DNA from: Spongiactinospora gelatinilytica
GTDB taxonomy: Bacteria > Actinomycetota > Actinomycetes > Streptosporangiales > Streptosporangiaceae
Assembly (NCBI RefSeq): GCF_003236385.1
Contig: NZ_POUA01000001.1
Coordinates: 1 to 61,807 of the forward strand
DNA length: 61,807 bases
Direction: 5' to 3'
This document shows, one piece after another, positions 31,391 to 61,807 of the stretch. Position numbers and translations under genes: made by a program. Below the pieces are notes generated by a model. The model was not told the origin of the DNA and made no database searches. It worked only from the letters and a program-made list of their open reading frames with translations. Position 1 is the first letter of the stretch, and the number at the start of each line of letters is the position of its first letter.

Positions 31391-31482
31391 GATGCGGGGT
31401 TCAGGTGCGGGGTTCAGGTGCGGGGTTCAGGTGCGGGGGTCAGGTGCGGGGGTCAGATACGCGAGGCTCAGATACGCGAAGC
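31391..31482. repeat. 13-bp tandem repeat plus duplicated stop-codon segment
   Basis: Five tandem copies of GGTGCGGGGTTCA (the first and last two with one or two changes) fill 31391-31455. They are followed by a 15-bp block GATACGCGAGGCTCA repeated as GATACGCGAAGC, which contains the end of the binding-protein gene. In coding direction the last codons Ser-Arg-Ile-stop are copied directly after the true stop. The array separates the lipoprotein and permease genes. Confidence 0.85.
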
Positions 31483-46858: not shown

Positions 46859-48013
46859 CTACCTGGCCTTGACGACCATGGTCATGGCGAACTTGTCGCT
46901 GAGGGTCTGCTGCAGCGGCTTGTCCCAGAACTGCCACAGGACGTTCACCAGGACGCCCAGGCCCAGCAGGTAGCCCAGGAAGGGGACGCCGTAGAGAACG
47001 TACGGCCCCCACAGGGAGCCGGCCCGCTTGAGGGCGGTCGTCGAGTCCAGGCCGCCGGAGCCGGTGGCGCCGGACACGGGCACCACCCGGATGCCCATGG
47101 CCATCTTGCCGACCGTCTGACCGCGCATGCGGGTCATGACGACCTCGTAGACGACGTAGAGGAGCCCCCCGATGACCGAGGTCATGATGCCCGCCAGCAG
47201 GAAGCCGCCGCCGAACTCTCCCGTCGTCGGGTTGTAGGAGGTGACCAGGAGGCCGCTCAGGATCAAGCTGAGGATGAAGTTCACGACGCCGAAGATCGCG
47301 CCGTCGATCAGCCTCGCCACGAGCCGCTGCCACCACTCGGCCAGCGGGGCCGTCGGCGCCCCGTAGCCGGGCGCGCCCCACGGCTGCTGGCCGTAGGCCT
47401 GCTGCTGCGGGTAGCCCTGCTGCTGAGCGTACTGCTGCTGCTCGTACCCCTGCTGGCCGTAGGCCTGCTGACCGTACTGCTGGGCGTGACCCTGGTCGTA
47501 ACCGGACTGCGGGTGACCCTGTTGCTGCCCGTACTGAGCCTGCTGTCCGTAACCCTGTTGCTGCGGGTAGCCCTGTTGCTGGTTGTACTGCTGCTGCTCG
47601 TAGCCCTGCCGGCCGTACTGCTGCTGCTGGCCATAGCCCTGTTGCTGGCCGTAGTCCGGCTGCTGCTGAGCGTACTGCTGCTGCTCGTACTGCTGTTGCC
47701 CGCCGTAGCCCTGCTGCTGCGGGTAGCCCTGTTGCTGACCGTACTGCTGCTGTTGTTCGTAGCCCTGCTGGCCGTACTGCTGCTGCCCGTATCCGGGCTG
47801 CTGGCCATAGTCCTGGCCGTACTGCTGGCCGTACTGGGGCTGCTGCGGGTTGGATCCGGGGTCGGCCCGGTAGCCGCTCACCATGGTCGCGTCAGGGTCG
47901 GAAGGCCCGCCCTGACCCTGCTGGTAGTGGCCGTAATCAGGGTTCCCCGACGATCGCGCCGCGTTGTTGCGCTCGGGGTCGTCCTGCGGATACGGCGGTT
48001 GTCCCGTGCTCAC
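46859..48013 (-). CDS. RDD-family membrane protein with long Q/G/Y-rich N-terminal arm
   Basis: A 384-residue protein. Residues 1-223 are low complexity: after [17 protein letters not shown], a run of about 30 short words such as [12 protein letters not shown] and GYEQQQ with almost no hydrophobic residue apart from Tyr. Residues 224-384 are a normal RDD domain ([55 protein letters not shown]) with about four membrane segments. The arm faces the cytoplasm by the usual RDD topology (inferred) and looks prion-like. GAGGTGACGCG before GTG 48013 fixes the start. Short proline/glutamine arms are common in actinobacterial RDD proteins, but this one is long. Confidence 0.9.
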
Positions 48014-57096: not shown

Positions 57097-57945
57097 TCAG
57101 GATGCCGTCAGGGTGATGTTGTCGATCAGCCGGGTCGTGCCGACCCGGGCCGCGACCGCGAGCACCGCCTCGCCCTGGTGGTCGCCGGGCACCTCGGTGA
57201 AGGTCAGCGGATCGACCAGGGTGAGGTAGTCGAGCTTGAGCGGGGGTTCGGCGTGGGCGGCGGCGTCCAGTACCTCGCCGGCCGCCCGCCTGATCTCGGC
57301 CGGGCCGCGCTGGGCGGCGCCCGCGCGCAGGGCGCGGGAGAGCGCGAGGGCGGTACGGCGGTCGGCCTCGGACAGATAGCGGTTGCGGCTGGACAGGGCC
57401 AGGCCGTCGGGCTCGCGCACGGTCTCGCCGCCGACGATCGCGATCGGCAGGTCCAGGTCGAGGACCATCCTGCGGATGATCGCCAGTTGCTGGGCGTCCT
57501 TGCGGCCGAACACCGCCACATCCGGGCGTACCAGGTTGAACAGCTTGTTCACCACGGTGAGCACGCCGTCGAAGTGGCCGGGGCGGAACGTCCCTTCGAC
57601 GATCGTGCCCATCGGCCCGGCGGAGACGGAGACCTGGCGGTGGGGACGGTACATCGCCTCGGGGGACGGGGCGAAGACGACGTTCACCCCCTCGGCGGCG
57701 CATGCGTCCAGGTCTGCCTGGAAGGTGCGGGGATAGCGGGAGAAATCCTCATCCGGGGAGAACTGGAGGGGGTTGACGAAAATGCTGACCACCACGTGCT
57801 CGGCGTACTGCCTGGCGAGCCTGATCAGCGACCGGTGCCCCTCGTGCAGCGCGCCCATGGTCGGCACCAGCGCCAGCCGTCCGCCGCCCAGCTCGCCGCG
57901 CGCGATGTCCAGCTCCGCGCGGTCGCGCGCGACGATCACGTCCAT
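57097..57945 (-). CDS. panC: Pantothenate synthetase
   Basis: A 282-residue enzyme joining pantoate and beta-alanine with ATP. LALVPTMGALHEGHRSLIRL carries the HIGH-like motif (HEGH at about 34-37), SIFVNPLQFSP follows, VAVFGRKDAQQLAIIRRMVL binds ATP and LALSSRNRYLS holds the KMSKS-like site. The start overlaps the upstream DUF2520 gene by 10 bases. Confidence 0.96.
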   Translation of the reverse strand: MDVIVARDRAELDIARGELGGGRLALVPTMGALHEGHRSLIRLARQYAEHVVVSIFVNPLQFSPDEDFSRYPRTFQADLDACAAEGVNVVFAPSPEAMYRPHRQVSVSAGPMGTIVEGTFRPGHFDGVLTVVNKLFNLVRPDVAVFGRKDAQQLAIIRRMVLDLDLPIAIVGGETVREPDGLALSSRNRYLSEADRRTALALSRALRAGAAQRGPAEIRRAAGEVLDAAAHAEPPLKLDYLTLVDPLTFTEVPGDHQGEAVLAVAARVGTTRLIDNITLTAS

Positions 57946-58826
57946 ATGTTGCCTCCCAGCGCGTCCAGCAGGCGCTCGGCCGCCTCCGGTTTGAGCAGCC
58001 CCGCCGCGAGCGCCCGGTCGGCGGTCAGCCGGGCCAGCGCGATGTAGGCGTCGGCCGCCTCGGGGGCGGCCAGGATCAGCGCGTCCACGTGCTTGCGTAC
58101 CGTGCCCGCGTCGCCGCGCACCACCGGGCCGGTGAGGCCCGCGATGCCGAGCCGCAGGACGTTGTCCAGGGCCGCGCCGAGCAGCGGGCCGAGCATCCGG
58201 CCCGGGTGCTCCACGCCGATCCGGCCGAGCAGCTCCTGCGACTCGGCGATCAGCGTGACCATGTGGTTGGCCGCCCCGGCGAGCGCCGCGTGGTAGAGCG
58301 CGCGGTCCGCGTCGTCGATCCAGACCGGCTCGCCGCTCATCTCGATGACCAGCGCCTCGGCCACCGGGCGCAGCGTGGGCGGCGCGGTGACGCCGAACGA
58401 GCAGCCGACCAGGCGGCGCAGGTCGTCGTCCCGGCCGGTGAAGGTCATCACCGGGTGCAGCGCCAGTGGGAGCGCGCCGGCCTGCGCGGCGGGCTCCAGC
58501 ACGCTGAGGCCGTAGGCGCCGCTGGTGTGCGCGAGCAGCTTGCCGTGCAGATCGGCGCCGGTCGCCGCGAGCCCGGACACCAGGCCGGGCAGAACGTCGT
58601 CCGGTACGGTCAGCAGCACCAGCTCGGAGGCGCGTACGACCTCGTCCGGAGTGACGGGCGAGACGCCCAGCCGCTCCGCGGCCCTGCGCTGTGAGGCGTC
58701 GGAGACCCCGCTCGCCGCCACCACGCGATGGCCGGCCGTCACCAAGGCTGCACCGAGCACCGAACCGACCCGTCCGGCGCCGAGAATCCCGACGGCCAGC
58801 CGTGCCGGACGATCCCCTGCGTCCAT
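57936..58826 (-). CDS. Rossmann-fold DUF2520 protein (ketopantoate-reductase/ProC-like)
   Basis: A 296-residue NAD(P)-binding protein. LAVGILGAGRVGSVLGAALV is the dinucleotide site, LLTVPDDVLPGLVSGLA and AHTSGAYGLSVLEPAAQAGA follow, and the DUF2520 C-terminal helical domain begins about residue 160 (YHAALAGAANHMVTLIAESQ). Placed directly before panC, it may serve as the ketopantoate reductase that otherwise is missing from this row; this is context inference, not shown. GGGACGGGACG precedes ATG 58826. Confidence 0.85.
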   Translation of the reverse strand: MDAGDRPARLAVGILGAGRVGSVLGAALVTAGHRVVAASGVSDASQRRAAERLGVSPVTPDEVVRASELVLLTVPDDVLPGLVSGLAATGADLHGKLLAHTSGAYGLSVLEPAAQAGALPLALHPVMTFTGRDDDLRRLVGCSFGVTAPPTLRPVAEALVIEMSGEPVWIDDADRALYHAALAGAANHMVTLIAESQELLGRIGVEHPGRMLGPLLGAALDNVLRLGIAGLTGPVVRGDAGTVRKHVDALILAAPEAADAYIALARLTADRALAAGLLKPEAAERLLDALGGNIWT

Positions 58827-58936
58827 TTCGTCCCGTCCCGTTGAGAATGCCGGACGCCTACGAGTCCGGACGCCTGCTCCGCTGCCCCAGGTCCAGGGTA
58901 ACGAAAGGAACGGGGTGGACTTCGATCGGCACACGA

Positions 58937-58975
58937 CTCAGGTTTTTACCGAAACCTGAGATACCGATAAATCGG
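58937..58975. promoter_or_regulatory. Inverted repeats upstream of the DUF2520-panC operon
   Basis: CTCAGGTTT (58937-58945) and AAACCTGAG (58952-58960) form a perfect 9-bp inverted repeat, followed by CCGAT-AA-ATCGG (58964-58975). They lie 110-150 bp before the DUF2520 start and could be an operator or a terminator-like structure. Confidence 0.45.
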
Positions 58976-59129
58976 AAAGGGAAGGCGAAGTGGGACAAAG
59001 CCCTTGAGTTGGGCGCCCCAGAGATGAGGAGGAGGGTCACCGATCGACTCATCGAAGCGACGGGCGCCGAGCCCCGCGAAGGGGCCCGGCGCTCGCCTAT
59101 GAGCCCATCTGGAGAACGGACTCCTGAAG

Positions 59130-60790
59130 TTCTGGGTCGCATGGTTGCGATCCATGTGGACGGGACCACCGGCGCGGGGTCCCGTGTACCGGGGGCATGG
59201 CCTGACGGCCCCGTGGATGGAGATCATCGGCCCACTGCCCCGGCCGGGCCGGACCGCGCATGACGACGGTCCCTGTGTTGTAGTGGACCGTCCATGTCGG
59301 CGATCCGCGTTGTACCGAAGCAACCGGCCCCGGGACAGCGGCCCTTGCCGGGCCTGAACTTCCCGGACGACAGCCGGTGCGCACCGGACCACCCGCGACG
59401 AACGGCCCGCGTTGAGCCGGACCGTCCAGCGGTGATCCACCGTGCCCCAGGCCGCCGGGTGACGACGGCCCAGGTAGTGCCGGGACCGCCCGTAACGACG
59501 GCCCGCGTGGTAAGCCGGACCACCTCAGTGGTGATCCCCCCTCGCCCGCAAGCCACTTGATCGGCGGCCGGTGAGCGAGAGAAACAGCAGGTTATGAGCG
59601 ACAGACCGCCTTCGGCGACGGTCCGCGTTGACTCGAACCATCCCAGCGGCGATCCGCCGCACCCCCAGGCCGCCGGCAACGACGACCCGGGCACTACCGG
59701 ACCACCCGAACGGCGATCCGCCGCACCCCAGGCCACCGATAACGACAGCCCAGGTAAGACCGGAACCACCCCGGGCAGCGGCCCATACCGGGCCGAACCA
59801 CCCGAACGGCGATTCGCCTTACTCCCGGGCCGCCCATCATGACGACCCAGGTGACACCGGGCCACCTTGAGCAGTGGCCCACGAGTACGAGCCGCCCAAC
59901 CAGCGGCCCGTACCCACGAACCGCCGGTGAGGGCGGTCCGCCTTCTACCGGACCCGCCGGTGACGGCGACCCCAGGTAGCACCAGAACCACCGTGGGTAG
60001 CGGCCTGTGCCAGCCGAACCACCCGAACGGCGATCCGCTTGACTCCCGGGCCGCCGGCAACGACGGCCCAGGTAGCACCAGACCACTCCGGGTAACGGCC
60101 CGTGCCGGGCCGAACCACCCCGGAACAGTGATCCGCTTTGCACCGGACCGCCCGCGCGGACGGTCGGTGTGGCACGTGATCGCTCGGCACGCGATCCGTT
60201 GGTACGGCCACCTCGACGGCGGCCGGCAGGCCCATGACCACGACACGGTGACCCGTGTGCGCGAACCACCGGCACGATGTCCCGTGGCTCGGGATCATCA
60301 GCAGGACGATCCGCGGACTCGGGCCACGCGTATGGCGGTCCATGGGCGCCGGACCACCGGCTTGGTGGACCGTGGGCACGGATCGCGCGTGCGGCGATCC
60401 GCAGTGCCCGGCCGGCCACATGTGTGGCGACCGGTCGATCTGGACCTCCCGCCACATGTGTGGCGGCTGGTGATCTTGGACCGCCGTCAGGCGTCCCGCG
60501 ATGGGGACCCGCCGTCGATGGCGGTCCGTGAACCGGACCCGTTCACGTGCGTACTTCTACGAACTTCGCACGAACGGGTCGTGATACGGGCCGGTCGACC
60601 GGCGCCGCCCGTGGTCGGGCCGGCTCCGGCGAGGCGACCCGTGGTCCGGGCCCCCCTTTTAGGAGGCGGGTTGGTGCGCCCTGCCGTACAGGTCAGGACG
60701 CGAGGGCACTCGCGAGACGGCGAGTCCGTATCGGATCCGCGGCGTAAGCGCGGATCTCACCGACCCGCATGGGATGCGGGTCCTTGACGA
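59130..60790. repeat. Tandem array of ~32-bp degenerate hairpin units
   Basis: About 40 units of roughly 28-35 bp follow one another. A unit starts near GGACCACC or GAACCACC, returns about 20 bases later with CGGCGATCC, ACGGTCC or GACGGCCC, and often ends CGCGTTG..CC. Five copies of a 63-64-bp double unit (59419, 59635, 59699, 59795, 60016) are close enough to align by eye, and 59635, 59699 and 59795 are spaced by 64 and 96 bp, multiples of 32. Many units pair with themselves: GGACCG/CGGTCC, GGGCC/GGCCC, GGATC/GATCC, GATCGC/GCGATC. From 60710 on the hairpins grow longer (GATCCGCG/CGCGGATC, ACCCGCAT/ATGCGGGT). The period is not a multiple of 3 and no frame looks like a protein. Confidence 0.75.
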
Positions 60791-60896
60791 GGGGCCCGAG
60801 ACGAGGCTGGGCCCGCTGAGCACCCCGGCACGAAGTGCGAGGCGCGAGCGACCGGCCATCCGCCGACTGACCAGCCGCCTCGGTCACCGGGACCGG

Positions 60897-61154
60897 TCAG
60901 TTGTTGACCTTGGCCCCGTTGACGCACTTGCCCTGGGTGGGGTTGAGCACCGGAACCGCGATGACGTTGACCTGGTTGCCGCAGACGTTGATCGGCGCGG
61001 TGATCGGCACCTTCAGCTGGTTGCCGCCGAGGATGGACCCGTTGCCGCTGGTGCGGTCGCCGTTGTCGATGGTCGCGTGGGCGGGCGAAGCCATGAACAC
61101 CACACCCGCGATGCCAGCGGCGATACCCGCCTGCATGAGGACTTTCTTGAGCAC
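60897..61154 (-). CDS. Short chaplin
   Basis: An 85-residue secreted protein with signal peptide (VLMQAGIAAGIAGVVFMASP then AHA cleavage near residue 28) and one chaplin domain: GNGSILGGNQLKVPITAPIN, VCGNQVNVIAVPVLNP and GKCVNG, with the two conserved cysteines. Chaplins coat aerial hyphae and spores with amyloid-like films in streptomycetes and relatives. AAGGGGAG precedes GTG 61154. It has no sorting signal, so it belongs to the short class. Confidence 0.9.
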   Translation of the reverse strand: MLKKVLMQAGIAAGIAGVVFMASPAHATIDNGDRTSGNGSILGGNQLKVPITAPINVCGNQVNVIAVPVLNPTQGKCVNGAKVNN

Positions 61155-61357
61155 TCTGGCTCCCCTTTGTCTAGATGCGTTCTTCTCCGTCTCGCGTGGC
61201 GCCTTCGCCAGACGGGCCAGTCGATGCCGGGCGGCCGGACCGCGCCCGATGGGGGACCGGGCCGGGACGGCTTTCGCCTCTCGACTGCAGAGCAAGGTTA
61301 GCGCAAAGCGACGACAGCGGGTAGCAAACGCGTCACTCAGCGTGTCACGTTAGTGCC
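61155..61357. promoter_or_regulatory. Divergent region between chaplin and methyltransferase genes
   Basis: 203 bp between two divergent genes. Nothing beyond the expected promoters is seen, apart from the chaplin ribosome site. Confidence 0.4.
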
Positions 61358-61807
61358 ATGATCTCCCAGCGAGCGCATGAATACCCCGCCACCGACGGGG
61401 ATATAACGTCAGCAGACGTGTGGACCACCTGGCGAGCCGCGATGGAGCGGGCGCTCTACGGCAGGGATGGTTTCTACCTGCGCGAGCGCCCTTCCCGGCA
61501 TTTCCGTACATCGGTGAGCGCCTCTCCGGCCTTCGCCGAGGCCGTCGTGCGCATTCTGACCGACCTGGACGTACGGCTGGGCCACCCGCCCCGCCTTGAC
61601 CTGGTCGACATCGGCGCCGGCGAGGGCACCCTGGTCGCCCAGATCCTCACACTGGTACACGAACCGCCGCACCACGAACTGACCTCCCGCCTGCGGCTGA
61701 CCGGCGTGGACCTGGCCCCCCGTCCCCCCGGCCTGCCCGCCGAGATCGCCTGGCGCGGCTCCTGCCCCGAGACCGTGACCGGCCTGATCATCTGCAACGA
61801 ATGGCTC
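61358..61807 (+). CDS. SAM-dependent methyltransferase, MidA-like, 3' end outside window
   Basis: The first 150 residues are visible from ATG 61358. WTTWRAAMERALYGRDGFYL and SRHFRTSVSASPAFAEAVVR match the N-terminus of the MidA/NDUFAF7-like family (COG1565). LDLVDIGAGEGTLVAQIL is the SAM-binding motif I and LRLTGVDLAPRP motif II; GLIICNEWL follows at the window edge. The family methylates an arginine of a complex I subunit in mitochondria; bacterial targets are not known. Confidence 0.8.
   Translation, partial: MISQRAHEYPATDGDITSADVWTTWRAAMERALYGRDGFYLRERPSRHFRTSVSASPAFAEAVVRILTDLDVRLGHPPRLDLVDIGAGEGTLVAQILTLVHEPPHHELTSRLRLTGVDLAPRPPGLPAEIAWRGSCPETVTGLIICNEWL

Follow-up and report, generated by a model that had tools for sequence, protein, structure and literature searches.

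A tandem array of some fifty hairpins between a chaplin gene and the pantothenate operon of Spongiactinospora

Clusters of hairpins without U-tracts have been published as a form of intrinsic terminator (Gupta and Pal 2021, PMC8355165; PMC8269248), and U-lacking or I-shaped terminators are described for GC-rich actinobacteria (PMC8269248). In the former study the mean size of a cluster is about 3 hairpins for those identified and 5 for those predicted, with an exponential fall-off with hairpin number, and a hairpin lies at most 80 nt from the stop codon in 98% of correctly identified sites (PMC8355165). A further source reports that decay yields metastable intermediates where 3' regions carry stable stem-loops and that dispersed REP elements number over 650 in E. 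coli K-12 (PMC4681348). The array that we describe lies in a stretch of 61,807 nt from Spongiactinospora gelatinilytica (contig NZ_POUA01000001.1; hereafter the window). It resembles hairpin-cluster and U-lacking terminators in having tandem stem-loops less than about 15 nt apart that stand 3' of a stop codon and need no U-tract, but unlike clusters of about 3-5 hairpins it comprises about 50, spread over 1.7 kb and built of related units.

Several other systems invite comparison. REP and BIME elements are palindromes outside genes, in 3' regions, where they can lend stability to upstream mRNA or take part in termination, and the array likewise consists of extragenic palindromes in a 3' region; unlike the dispersed REPs, it was found as one array per genome. 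A single sponge RNA of the CsrB/RsmZ type carries a small hairpin in many copies; the array too repeats a small hairpin many times and would do so within one RNA, but a conserved loop motif was not seen in it. Like bacterial minisatellites or VNTRs, the array has head-to-tail units, higher-order repeats of 63 and 96 nt in the window and changes of copy number; unlike them, its pairing is kept strand-specifically between the window and Spongiactinospora rosea, and the repeat finder TRF reports no such array in S. rosea or Spongiactinospora sp. TRM90649, where the folding excess nevertheless persists. CRISPR arrays combine a period of about 30 nt and palindromic units with a constant repeat and unique spacers; the array shares the first two features and has neither a constant repeat nor unique spacers, and a CRISPR-like identity was rejected. 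Integron attC arrays and linear-chromosome telomere palindromes were also rejected, as their known features and the internal position of the array do not fit. A full-text literature search covering few subscription papers found neither this array nor a bacterial array of similar size that keeps its fold rather than its sequence. Hairpin-cluster terminators and extragenic palindromes are known kinds; the scale and the repeat-like evolution are unusual.

Location and hairpin content of the array

A preliminary description of this DNA had placed about 40 units of 32 bp between a pantothenate operon and a chaplin gene. The position is borne out by domain matches (PF03777, DUF2520/Rossmann and PanC), and the units are as described in kind but more numerous, with 51-54 hairpins about 31 nt apart. 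All three neighbouring genes lie on the minus strand, with the chaplin gene upstream of the array and the pan operon downstream:

57097-57945, minus strand: panC, pantoate--beta-alanine ligase (PanC domain match)
57939-58826, minus strand: DUF2520/Rossmann-like gene, adjoining panC, presumed first gene of the pan operon
59059-59097, minus strand: E1, a long hairpin of 14 Watson-Crick and 2 G-U pairs (-33.6 kcal/mol, z -3.95)
59130-60820, minus strand: tandem hairpin array, 51-54 hairpins, median centre spacing 31.5 nt
59400-60130, minus strand: high-turnover part of the array, where a small number of unit types follow one another in a partly regular order and form higher-order repeats of 63 and 96 nt
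60240-60820, minus strand: 5' part of the array in minus-strand reading, mostly near-identical in S. rosea except at about 60530-60570
60848-60876, minus strand: E2, a conserved segment some 20-50 nt 3' of the chaplin stop codon
60897-61154, minus strand: short chaplin gene (85 aa; PF03777), stop codon at 60897-60899

In the window array, 51 minus-strand hairpins reach -9 kcal/mol or better and 54 reach -6 kcal/mol or better. A count of hairpins by eye is no evidence, because GC-rich dinucleotide shuffles of the array's length still yield about 40; the summed hairpin energy, however, is 746.8 against 521.9 +/- 22.1 in 60 such shuffles of the minus strand, 10 SD above them, and the highest value in 15 further segments of the window, each of 1690 nt and taken on the plus strand, is 641. 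Spacing is also regular, with 82% of centre-to-centre distances at 26-37 nt against 48 +/- 7% in shuffles. The aligned units have a canonical core, GG-N-Y-C-R-Y-Y, loop, R-G-Y-G-G-N-Y-C, with stems of about 8-12 bp and a small loop, and each unit folds alone. The five stems quoted in the preliminary description are all present where it placed them; that the structure belongs to the minus strand was absent from it. An identical CCACATGTGTGGCG core is common to two array hairpins at 60412-60471, perhaps through a recent local duplication.

The array begins about 80 nt beyond the chaplin stop codon, and at least two stable hairpins stand in close tandem 3' of that codon on the RNA strand, the arrangement of a hairpin-cluster terminator. 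Between 58800 and 61400 there are 0 sites with the U-tract after a stem that marks a canonical intrinsic terminator, and no sigma-70-like promoter, the scan for the latter being weak evidence in actinobacteria. A search of 58000-61807 against Rfam gave no family match; its four hits, at E 2.7-4.9, all fell well short of the gathering scores.

The genus has three known genomes including that of the window, and a similar array in relatives, which the preliminary description had suggested looking for, is present in both genus-mates compared, S. rosea LHW63015 and TRM90649. In S. rosea the array lies at the same place, with 82% identity over 1801 bases and 46-50 hairpins; the flanks and most of 60240-60820 are nearly identical to the window, and the middle, at 59400-60130, shows unit-sized gaps and replaced units. 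Its summed energy is 750.7 against 508.8 +/- 24.9 in shuffles, with a spacing regularity that is not extreme (58% at 26-37 nt against 45 +/- 8%; shuffle maximum 67%). The array of TRM90649 has 19 hairpins in 568 nt, all of its spacings fall at 26-37 nt (47 +/- 13% in shuffles) and its interior gives no DNA alignment to the window or S. rosea arrays, so that hairpin number ranges across the genus from 19 to about 50. Minus-strand fold energies compared with 30 shuffles are -873 against -704 +/- 16 in the window, -878 against -683 +/- 16 in S. rosea and -324 against -239 +/- 11 in TRM90649; this excess is greater on the minus than on the plus strand in the window and S. rosea, and TRM90649 has hardly any strand difference.

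The fold excess remains where repeat finding fails. Within the window array TRF reports only 59635-59881 (periods 63 and 96), in the S. rosea array one 29-nt row and in the TRM90649 array three rows of 15-23 nt, and because it detects so little in the three arrays, we regard the units as too diverged for a conventional minisatellite. Elsewhere in the window, 31393-31456 holds a 13-bp tandem repeat (4.9 copies, 98%), and 47383-47844 holds dense 15-54-nt repeats whose minus-strand reading is, by eye, a repetitive Gly-Tyr-Gln-rich segment.

Pairing and strand

The preliminary description had proposed, from compensating changes, that pairing and not sequence is kept. Among motif-chosen GGNYC pairs 14-20 nt apart in the window array, 26 of 49 are Watson-Crick at N:N' against 11.7 expected (0 of 5000 permutations); the same test gives 18 of 49 in S. 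rosea (11.9 expected; 157 of 5000) and 7 of 19 in TRM90649 (5.8 expected; 1734 of 5000), and a control on the minus strand of window positions 1-58800 gives 34 of 125 against 34.7 expected. Unit alignments were made from 92 tiles defined by fold and length, of which 32 were used in alignment A2 and 28 in A4; 94.9% and 97.3% of their cells are paired, a level reached by 0 of 500 shuffles, although this measure counts only the second of two hairpins per tile and leans towards pairing because its rows were chosen by folding. The motif-only GGNYC test and the comparison of orthologous positions in the window and S. rosea are free of that choice. The units of an array are related by duplication, and within-array counts are not independent: under a tree null for 44 motif-selected units, 33 of 1000 simulations reach the Watson-Crick excess at the central stem pair, and 81 of 1000 do so with G-U included. 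When the kinship of the units is allowed for, the central pair covaries only modestly.

Between the window and S. rosea, one species pair compared over the 1286 alignment columns that have a local identity of 70% or more and lie clear of gaps, we set the number of broken pairs against an expectation in which the observed differences are dropped at random on the same bases. Minus-strand pairs are broken less often than expected in both stem sets (14 against 33.4 +/- 3.8 and 13 against 26.4 +/- 3.5; 0 of 2000 each), plus-strand pairs less distinctly so (26 against 31.4, P 0.10; 29 against 42.2, P 0.001). The bulk of the signal comes from the high-turnover part (6 against 20.4; 7 against 16.1), and the 5' part, conserved in sequence, has about as many broken pairs as expected when taken by itself (8 against 9.9). 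Double compensations number 2 against 1.0-1.1 expected, and changes that leave a pair intact show no excess (27 against 22.0, P 0.09; 22 against 28.3). The mark of selection is fewer broken pairs, not many compensations. The claim that pairing is kept is thus supported in part, by the sparing of minus-strand pairs between species and by covariation beyond that of shuffled alignments. The pattern points to pairing selected at the RNA level.

In stems called with G-U and A-C scored alike, the minus-strand G-U:A-C ratio is 60:14 in the window and 47:17 in S. rosea, against 13:13 in TRM90649, where there is no G-U excess, and 915:913 in the control of window positions 1-58800. In the changes between species, window stems show 18 exchanges between Watson-Crick and G-U against 1 between Watson-Crick and A-C, and S. 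rosea stems 14 against 2, with 8 more from Watson-Crick to other mismatches. This strand-neutral test is weaker than a 27:5 contrast that it replaced, which required pairing in both species and was partly circular. Stem sites are substituted at 5.2-5.5% against 12.4-12.6% elsewhere (P 3e-6, 1e-5), and a weaker test, at 75% local identity, gives 32 changes in 728 stem positions against 34 in 311 unpaired ones. Strand-biased mutation may contribute, because C/T changes on the minus strand outnumber A/G changes outside stems too (31:18, not different from 21:8 in stems; 18:6 against 14:10 at 75% local identity, again not different). In sum, the evidence favours an RNA on the minus strand, with a strand preference in two of the three arrays, the window and S. 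rosea; the favoured strand is that of the chaplin gene, as read-through demands. Since this evidence is strand-specific, a structured transcript would best fit among the readings first offered for the array, as neither of the others, a DNA-binding array or a minisatellite of palindromes, predicts G-U over A-C on one strand.

Distribution of the array and its flanking hairpins

Clustered model matches occur at one locus in each of the three genus genomes, among 150 first-look candidates scored per genome, rather than as a dispersed multicopy element of the REP/BIME kind; no second array was found in these genomes, the sole match elsewhere at E <1 being a single one (E 0.94) in S. rosea. Wider covariance-model searches matched 24 of 250 genomes of the family (three of them the genus), 14 of 246 of the class and 54 of 297 of the order (in each case one being the window genome). 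Outside the genus these were one or two scattered weak matches per genome, none clustered, a negative that is limited because only 18-22 first-look candidates were scored per genome, with stricter filters and rough E-values. The search models were trained on window and S. rosea units and may miss arrays of the same architecture in other letters; R2, the model without TRM90649 rows (R1 includes four), matched the TRM90649 array weakly, at 27.9 and 22.0 bits inside and 17.6 bits at the edge reaching E1, compared with 18.8 bits for an off-array match and 15.0 on the opposite strand, and gave no match below E 0.14 in 78 other loci. A scan for dense folding around 41 of the matched loci (the 29 loci L123-L151 and the 12 loci L156-L167) found no such array, 6 of those 29 also being read by eye. 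In locus L144, from a class-level relative, GGNCC palindromes are grouped over 0.25 kb between two genes, at about 1510-1760, with no 32-nt array by eye, and L167 holds what by eye is a coding repeat. A DNA similarity search with 59100-60900 matched 64 of 200 family genomes (three being the genus); the matches outside the genus, about 24-61 nt long and many at query positions 1091-1133, were taken as chance or coding similarity. As far as seen, the array is confined to Spongiactinospora.

The hairpins that flank it are distributed more widely. Among 81 loci (the best 80 of 121, and the window), a chaplin gene lies within 3 kb in 26, always on the same strand, one of these matches being weak (L090, E 3.4e-4). 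E1, on the pan-operon side of the array, was found in 33 of these 81 Streptosporangiaceae loci: it is present in 24 of the 26 loci with a neighbouring same-strand chaplin gene against 9 of the 55 without (L053 left out), in a statistic that ignores kinship. Over 32 distinct copies (including L053, probably a false match), its G-U:A-C ratio of 63:8 indicates a minus-strand hairpin. The motif of E2 occurs in 20 of the 81 loci; its region (60845-60880) folds as a minus-strand hairpin of -21.5 kcal/mol (z -3.36) within 80 nt of the chaplin stop codon (60897-60899), and we take E2 to be a putative chaplin terminator. In the 23 loci whose chaplin gene was found by tblastn, the start of DUF2520 and the chaplin match lie 314-510 nt apart in 19 cases, 811 nt in Thermocatellispora, 900 nt in TRM90649, 2024 nt in S. 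rosea and 2074 nt in the window. A conserved stretch at 58930-59097, upstream of the pan genes and ending in E1, is a candidate unannotated terminator or leader RNA, and neither it nor its counterparts in L110, L057 and L093 have an Rfam match. In these related genera, SAM-IV riboswitches flank the locus (L057 2029-2144; L110 2108-2223; L093 1039-1154, minus).

Interpretations of the array

We tentatively favour, at somewhat less than even confidence, reading the array as a greatly enlarged terminator or 3'-UTR barrier of tandem hairpins, which would act on the minus strand where transcripts read through from the chaplin gene to the pan operon. The array would be transcribed as RNA in the path of transcripts running from the chaplin gene towards the pan operon, and selection would keep the pairing of its units but not their letters, leaving units free to duplicate, be deleted and convert. 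Its likeliest job would be that of a highly redundant intrinsic terminator of the hairpin-cluster, U-tract-less kind combined with a 3'-end barrier: one hairpin after another would cause RNA polymerase to pause and dissociate and would bar the way to 3'-to-5' exonucleases, so that chaplin mRNA would be protected and the pan operon shielded from run-on of a developmental gene. The array probably grew in Spongiactinospora, the only genus in which it was seen, between two hairpins that relatives also have and that would predate it, E2 after the chaplin gene and E1 ahead of the pan operon; on the simplest account, the gap held barrier or terminator hairpins in relatives and Spongiactinospora amplified such hairpins. 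That some fifty hairpins far exceed the needs of termination counts against the terminator reading.

A possible though rather doubtful alternative is a non-functional satellite, hairpin-forming DNA that grows and shrinks through slippage and unequal exchange; correction by template switching during replication would keep its palindromes near-perfect, and mutation would be strand-biased to some degree. It would account for the turnover of units and the higher-order repeats, for an array seen in one genus only and sitting between hairpins where insertions may be harmless, for the unbiased stems of TRM90649 (13:13) and for the minus-strand C/T excess outside stems. Template switching, however, makes Watson-Crick palindromes alike on both strands, and it predicts neither the 18:1 preference for Watson-Crick/G-U exchange over A-C nor the difference between minus and plus strands in broken pairs; nor does a satellite account for a fold excess that remains where repeat finding fails.

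We consider it unlikely that the array encodes an independently transcribed long non-coding RNA whose many copies of one hairpin might, for instance, soak up RNase III or a protein that binds double-stranded RNA, a sponge with the logic of CsrB but different parts. Its repeated stem cores (GG-N-Y-C / G-G-N-Y-C), strand-specific pairing and variable copy number (19 to about 50) are consistent with such an RNA. In a study of S. venezuelae, mutants in RNase III and RNase J show strong upregulation of the chaplin and rodlin genes; its authors assign these genes to the indirect BldD regulon, so that the link is an indirect one only (PMC12096830). Loop sequence and length vary, however, the sigma-70 scan shows no promoter-like site (weak evidence in actinobacteria) and the array is placed where chaplin run-on would enter. 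Slightly less probable again is a "structural RNA satellite": a long repeat RNA would be transcribed, and selection would act on the foldability of each of its about fifty units even as sister species come to differ in the sequence and number of units. Such an RNA might bind a protein specific for double-stranded RNA, RNase III for instance, and link that protein to chaplin expression and aerial development.

An array of palindromic binding sites acting at the DNA level, in segregation, nucleoid structure, replication or regulation, is very improbable: hairpins set close to three turns of the helix apart, as they are in the window and TRM90649, would suit it, as would the GG-N-CC palindromic cores, but a strand-specific G-U preference and variable stem letters argue against a protein that reads DNA sequence, and there is no second array among the candidates scored in the three genomes. 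A decayed protein-coding repeat gene is hardly credible, as the open frames of 340 aa (minus) and 306 aa (plus) that overlap the window array have no Pfam match, the frames across the S. rosea array differ and the alignment contains single-base indels; a conserved protein, which the preliminary description had named as evidence against its own view, was accordingly rejected.

If the reading of the array as a tandem-hairpin terminator or 3'-end barrier is right, it would be an extreme natural case of such termination or 3'-end protection in a GC-rich bacterium, and one of selection on fold without selection on letters, which TRF and an Rfam search miss. It would also supply actinomycete engineering with natural insulators of diverse sequence, and would allow a test of how structured bacterial non-coding DNA arises within one genus.
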